Positions 34,939 through 35,087 of a stretch of DNA of 39,228 nucleotides are shown here, in pieces. A program made the translations under genes and the position numbers. How positions within the stretch are numbered: position 1 is the stretch's first letter; the number at the start of each line of letters is the position of its first letter. The stretch is from positions 1 through 39,228 of IMG/VR virus record IMGVR_UViG_3300033145_000452. One strand, written 5' to 3'. The notes beneath the pieces were generated by a model. That model worked only from the letters and a program-made list of their open reading frames with translations, had not been told where the DNA came from and did no database searches. The stretch comes from a virus.

Positions 34939-35087
34939 TATCGGAGGGCAGGACTCGAACCTGCATGAGGTGCTTATACCGCTAGGTGTTTTCGCATAGT
35001 CCTCGCCCGGCGTGGGTGCGTCTAAAATCCAATGACAAGCATTGACCTTAATGTTGGTATACTTTGTCAATTCCACCACCTCCGATA
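34939..35087 (-). ncRNA. tRNA/tmRNA-like RNA, about 149 nt
   Basis: A 9-bp helix (TATCGGAGG with CCTCCGATA) closes the element. A canonical T-arm (GCAGG, loop TTCGAGT, CCTGC) abuts it directly at the 3' side. The 5' side continues TGGTGGAATTGACA, like a tRNA-Leu or tmRNA D-region. A second long-range helix (TATACC with GGTATA) takes the place of an anticodon stem. The roughly 75-nt insert contains TCAATG/CATTGG. No standard anticodon arm was found, CCA is not encoded, and the third acceptor pair is G-C, not G-U. So it is tRNA-like, but charging is doubtful. Confidence 0.5.

Follow-up and report, generated by a model that had tools for sequence, protein, structure and literature searches.

The window, that is, the whole 39,228-base stretch of DNA analysed here, is IMG/VR virus record IMGVR_UViG_3300033145_000452, an uncultivated tailed-phage record. 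Its genes include those for a DNA polymerase, a primase, a Sak4-like protein, an exonuclease, a thymidylate synthase, a terminase and a major head protein. For positions 15001–39228, no close match to a named phage was found by DNA; by DNA polymerase, Desulfofustis phage LS06-2018-MD01 comes nearest, at 42%. Within a 729-aa ORF, some 325 bases are directly repeated with 76% identity (9593–9916 and 9938–10261). An intergenic motif, CTTCGTTCAAATTCCGAATAAAG, stands ahead of start codons at 1280–1309, 7119–7145, 15728–15753, 25835–25858 and 34848–34874. It is more palindromic in relatives (CTTCGTTC..GAACGAAG) and is perhaps a promoter or regulator site.

The element under study lies in the 464 bases between a 143-aa gene and a 119-aa gene, neither of which has a PHROG or Pfam match; the sole ORF of at least 80 aa inside this spacing is on the opposite strand. 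The original prediction, which named no strand, placed a 149-nt RNA at 34939–35087. Both its position and its length hold, and the RNA's strand is the minus strand (Table 1). Directly after the element, minus-strand positions 34868–34937 contain an outer stem, GAAGTTG/CAACTTC, around two hairpins, a possible second structured module.

Parts of the element

Table 1. Coordinates of the tRNA-Leu-like RNA, its parts and the flanking genes in the window.
Feature	Coordinates	Strand	Remarks
Whole tRNA-Leu-like RNA	35087..34939	−	149 nt; 5′ end at 35087; homologues in other loci
Acceptor helix 5′ strand, 9 bp, TATCGGAGG	35079..35087	−	9/9 pairs double-changed among 18 members
Acceptor helix 3′ strand, 9 bp, CCTCCGATA	34939..34947	−	positions 73–74 paired, no CCA
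D-stem 5′ strand GTG	35074..35076	−	pairs with CGC 35018–35020
D-loop with inserted hairpin GACAA (35064–35068) / TTGTC (35034–35038), then ATTGG	35021..35073	−	hairpin recurs in relatives
Mini-hairpin CCC-ACGCC-GGG at anticodon-arm site	35006..35016	−	L139 CCCA/TGGG; L037 TCCA/TGGA
Long variable arm, stem GAGG (35001–35004) / CCTC (34967–34970)	34967..35004	−	ends 2 nt before T-stem
T-arm GCAGG-TTCGAGT-CCTGC	34948..34964	−	adjoins acceptor helix; covariation in 18 members
Upstream 143-aa gene	35297..35728	−	homologues precede RNA in most clade members
Downstream 119-aa gene	34473..34832	−	

The 5′ part of the element reads TATCGGAGG-TG-GTGGAATTG and the 3′ part GCAGG-TTCGAGT-CCTGC-CCTCCGATA. 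As originally described, a 9-bp closing helix (TATCGGAGG/CCTCCGATA) abuts a perfect T-arm, the 5′ start (TG-GTGGAATTG) is tRNA-Leu-like, and there is neither an encoded CCA nor a standard anticodon arm. The 7-bp acceptor and T-arm of a tRNA are present, with an acceptor 2 bp longer, and the 3′ end of the window type has positions 73–74 paired and is not CCA. The window has a single instance of a T-arm combined with a 9-bp helix and a tRNA-Leu D motif, and 100 dinucleotide shuffles have none. The MFE z is −2.5 for the minus strand and −2.7 for the plus strand; because the two values are similar, folding energy by itself does not settle the strand.

A long-range helix, TATACC/GGTATA, had also been proposed. 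Alignment does not bear it out, as there is no such 5′-strand sequence in the homologue L139 and a mismatch in L037. In its place are the D-loop hairpin GACAA/TTGTC, the short CCC/GGG hairpin and the variable-arm stem GAGG/CCTC. Without an anticodon, the RNA cannot decode. The ARAGORN and covariance-model runs suggested with the original prediction gave no call: ARAGORN in standard mode reported neither a tRNA nor a tmRNA for the element, and no Rfam family matched it, whether at the gathering threshold or with E as high as 5. The existence of the element and the absence of a decoding loop are well supported.

Relatives of the window type and their covariation

Relatives were drawn from Sak4-like protein loci, from DNA-polymerase relatives scanned for an acceptor and T-arm, and by means of a D-loop-hairpin pattern and a T-arm pattern. 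L006, the sequence of which is identical in L037 and others, has a homologue at the same site with the acceptor TTGCTGGGA/TCCCAGCAA, fully compensated relative to that of the window. A DNA-polymerase search of genome contigs yielded the third close homologue, L139, in a MAG labelled WOR-3 into which a phage contig was probably misbinned. The contigs L138–L142, DNA-polymerase relatives in MAGs labelled Nanohaloarchaea, WOR-3, Bacteroidales, Clostridia and Syntrophomonadaceae, are probably misbinned phage contigs; L138 has no match to the element. The D-loop-hairpin pattern brought in members whose neighbourhood has little or no gene content in common with that of the window's element (two copies in L144, one each in L147 and L148) as well as the partial members L146 and L149, and the T-arm pattern brought in L036. 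At 8807–8921 (−), L036 has a CCA-ending tRNA (Rfam tRNA, 58 bits) in which about 46 nt replace the 7-nt anticodon loop (CCGGT..ACCGG), one phage carrying both this odd tRNA and a tRNA-Leu-like RNA.

Common to 18 members are a 3-bp D-stem, a tRNA-Leu-like D-loop sequence, the T-arm and an acceptor continuing past position 7. In this extension, −1 pairs with 73 and, in most of the 18, −2 pairs with 74; it reaches at least 2 bp in 18 of 20. A D-loop-inserted hairpin is often present, in the form G(A/G)CAAG/CTTG(T/C)C in L144, L147–L149, L049, L036 and others. In the core alignment of the 18 members, 98.7% of cells are paired, and slid versions of it give 32–43%. Double-sided changes are found at 13 of 17 pairs and in 79 cells, against 8.6 and 20.7 in shuffles, the contribution of helix 1 being inflated because acceptor pairing chose part of the set. 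The members found by patterns without the acceptor (L036, L144a, L144b, L147 and L148) each have 7/7 pairs and extend the helix by 2 or more. Of 37 pairs proposed for the three closest homologues, 93.7% are satisfied, with 9 double changes, in a structure built on L139 and biased towards it. The variable-arm stem GAGG/CCTC keeps 4/4 pairs in three homologues, with one double change; the inner hairpin of this arm is weak, with 77.8% satisfied in the three closest.

Among relatives, the fold is conserved even as the sequence diverges. Covariation had been named at the outset as a check, and it is found for the acceptor, D- and T-stems across the 18 members; the TATACC/GGTATA helix is not kept. 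The best hairpin at the anticodon site has a loop of 7 nt in none of the members, and the covarying stems support the view, offered from the start, of a novel tRNA-like RNA or tRNA mimic. N73 is not conserved in the window type, and a 9-bp acceptor kept with free sequence, together with this variability, argues against charging as a tRNA. The element is best explained as a non-decoding RNA that either descends from tRNA-Leu or follows its design, with the acceptor/T-arm stack, the D-arm/T-loop elbow and the long variable arm retained and the anticodon gone.

A wider group of viral tRNA-Leu-like RNAs

An intact tRNA-Leu D-arm followed by a T-arm 52–82 nt later is found in at least 120 viral contigs. 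Among the matches listed, the RNAs are about 99–129 nt long, 99 of 109 distinct sequences have 6 or 7 acceptor pairs, A73 is present in 78/99 and C74 in most, 51 have the acceptor 5′ strand AGTCAGG, and no neighbour gene is common to the group. ARAGORN in standard mode called 1 of 121 among the listed matches, and intron mode returned unrelated anticodons. The generic tRNA model of Rfam matched some of twenty loci, at 34–41 bits.

A stem ending 0–3 nt, mostly 2, ahead of the T-stem is enriched among the matches listed (52 with at least 6 bp versus about 16 in shuffles). The best-scoring order has a stem at the anticodon-stem site, the loop of which holds the 5′ strand of the variable stem, forming a pseudoknot. 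With mononucleotide shuffles and a scoring scheme of our own, this order has a mean z of −0.89 (t = −7.8, 88 sequences), versus −0.36 for the cloverleaf order, again among the listed matches. A simpler test, confined to pairing between linker and variable loop, fell short of significance, which was reached when a second scoring took both helices jointly. Pairs of close homologues agree with the pseudoknot, namely L181 GACCA/TGGTC with L280 GACCC/GGGTC, and L218 GATAAC/GTTATC with L279 AATAAC/GTTATT. A pseudoknot replacing the anticodon arm in the wider group has, then, statistical support.

Bacteroides phage BS-TP2 is a cultured carrier, in which the element is unannotated and lies at about 19550–19657, between a DUF2303 gene and a NinG-like gene. 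None of 393 Bacteroidales genomes has the wider-group pattern, an amount of DNA too small to show absence. The window type and the wider group may be homologous or may each have been derived separately from tRNA-Leu.

Possible roles and known counterparts

In all the members listed, the element is codirectional and between genes. Position 1 falls 3–12 nt past a stop codon in 13 of 19 members, and in about half the element ends 27–31 nt ahead of the next start codon. The window is an exception: 211 nt separate its RNA from the preceding stop codon, that of the 143-aa gene, and 108 nt from the following start codon, and a distinct 9-bp hairpin follows that stop codon. At 70 clade loci, the sequence following the homologous 143-aa gene has a mean folding z of −2.28, and many of these loci have 12–20 bp hairpins beginning 5–20 nt past the stop. 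Intermediate forms also occur at this site: a mini tRNA-like structure in L040 and L043, an acceptor and T-arm only in L085, and in L112 a longer closing stem with the T-arm lost. Since L108, like the window, has both a plain hairpin and the RNA, the two are not strict alternatives. In L047, L049, L132 and L148, the element is elsewhere in the genome.

A role in cis is tentatively favoured, because the start usually lies just past a stop codon and because plain hairpins and intermediate forms occupy the site. In the window's clade, the RNA may be a stable, cis-acting intercistronic element that follows the Sak4 and 143-aa genes in the operon mRNA. With its acceptor-plus-T stack of 14 bp, it would substitute for the plain hairpins of relatives and would set or protect the 3′ end of the upstream message, possibly assisted by tRNA-binding or tRNA-processing proteins that recognise the elbow. 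Its transcription together with the operon, its action in cis and its effect on mRNA ends are inferred. The evidence against charging fits such a role. The window's own RNA fits it poorly, given its distances from the flanking genes and its separate hairpin, as do L108 and the four members sited elsewhere; a D-arm and elbow are superfluous for a plain hairpin, and any RNA gene falls near stop codons in compact phage genomes. The processing signal mentioned in the original prediction, still a candidate, is close to this explanation.

The close rival, possible though given somewhat less credence, is a tRNA mimic acting in trans. The released RNA would occupy a tRNA-binding protein as a non-decoding decoy, by way of its acceptor, elbow or variable arm; candidate partners are defence factors that cleave or modify tRNA, processing enzymes and LeuRS. 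Host factors are the likelier partners because no protein is common to all carriers: in eleven records, several of them incomplete, the widest cluster, that of the DNA polymerase, reaches nine. Some defences cleave tRNA outside the anticodon; Septu is reported to cut the variable loop of tRNA-Tyr (PMC13096335). The elbow and D-arm, kept beyond the needs of a hairpin, speak for a decoy, as do the tRNA-like ends without a 7-nt anticodon loop in many unrelated viral contigs with no common neighbour gene among the matches listed, although this last support comes from the wider group, which may have been derived from tRNA-Leu separately from the window type. A decoy has no known target, and the −1:73 and −2:74 pairs and varying N73 of the window type would be unfavourable for maturation and charging. 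RNase P reads the acceptor, T-arm and elbow. These are the most conserved parts of the intergenic element, which RNase P and a 3′ nuclease might excise as tRNA punctuation, freeing the flanking mRNAs and leaving an excised RNA with no role. We consider this improbable: the −1/−2 pairing is selected (at least a 2-bp extension in 18/20) and should hinder standard RNase P cleavage, and the D-loop hairpin and variable domains are left unexplained.

Decay of a tRNA-Leu into a pseudogene would account for the missing decoding loop, the variable interior and the patchy distribution among relatives, L138 being without a match. It is very improbable and is contradicted by the covariation, as every acceptor pair is compensated and the T-arms are intact in members without overall sequence similarity. 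Hardly credible is a reduced tmRNA, in line with the tmRNA-like character first ascribed to the element. The acceptor and T-arm, with another domain for the anticodon arm, suit it, and LAV- or LAA-stop triplets are present in the three closest homologues, where tag-like ends read by eye (RKHLAV and RKRLAA, each followed by a stop) are offset by 1 nt from a possible resume site. However, these ends are absent from the remaining homologues, a 1-nt indel intervenes between the possible resume site and the stop codon, the RNA has a 3-bp D-stem, and the Rfam tmRNA is unmatched at E up to 5. With no conserved frame and no conserved tag, a tmRNA with an LAA/LAV tag fails on both reading frame and conservation, and ARAGORN makes a tmRNA call at a relaxed threshold only, with a different 'tag' for each homologue. 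An interrupted, intron-containing tRNA-Leu was likewise rejected: the anticodons from intron-mode ARAGORN are unrelated, and the 5-bp arm that can form in L114 has no room for an anticodon because its loop is 4 nt. A stimulator of stop-codon readthrough was also rejected, the in-frame extensions running from 1 to 69 codons, mostly fewer than 20, without a common frame.

The anticodon-less tRNA shape, maintained by compensatory change across many phages, suggests a use of tRNA architecture beyond decoding. Similar RNAs in many phages are mostly missed by tRNA finders and Rfam. A broader and more doubtful proposal is that phages have a large and mostly unrecognised class of tRNA-Leu mimics that do not decode, that bear a pseudoknot or mini-hairpin for the anticodon arm and that target a host factor binding tRNA; by function, T4 RNAC may fall into this class too. 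Bacteroides phage BS-TP2, being cultured, makes the role testable, and T4 RNAC, by its similar plan, offers a second test system.

YrlA, a bacterial Y RNA, is a tRNA-mimicking RNA. Like the element, it has a tRNA-like module and is non-decoding; the YrlA/bacterial Y RNA family is unmatched in Rfam at E up to 5. With tRNA-Leu the element shares the D-arm TGG(C/T)GGAATTG.., the T-arm and the long variable arm, but it has no 7-nt anticodon loop, a 9-bp acceptor, an N73 unconserved in the window type and no ARAGORN call. Like tmRNA (Rfam RF00023 and related), it joins a tRNA-like acceptor/T-arm to a large domain in place of the anticodon arm; unlike tmRNA, it has a D-stem, no conserved tag, a length of about 150 nt and no Rfam match.

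T4 RNAC (species 1 RNA, NC_000866 70908–71046), the function of which is listed as unknown, is likewise encoded by a phage, measures about 139 nt and has both a T-arm and an acceptor helix. As in the plan of the element, a hairpin stands just ahead of the T-stem and no anticodon arm is seen. Locus L298:1409–1547 (−) is T4 RNAC, and its acceptor pairs are double-changed between T4 and phage phiR1-RT. With its T-arm and this covarying acceptor, T4 RNAC looks tRNA-like too. In contrast to the element, it has another D region, without the tRNA-Leu signature, and a 7-bp acceptor with two U-U mismatches (T4). In blastn queries with the window and T4 RNAC, no shared hits linked the two, and the observed likeness is one of plan. 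Open-access PMC literature was searched for phage RNAs that are tRNA-like or lack an anticodon, for decoys and for Y RNAs; judged by titles and the openings of abstracts, it yielded no description of the element. Undescribed by Rfam and this open-access literature, the element is a non-decoding tRNA-like RNA, which is a known kind of RNA.
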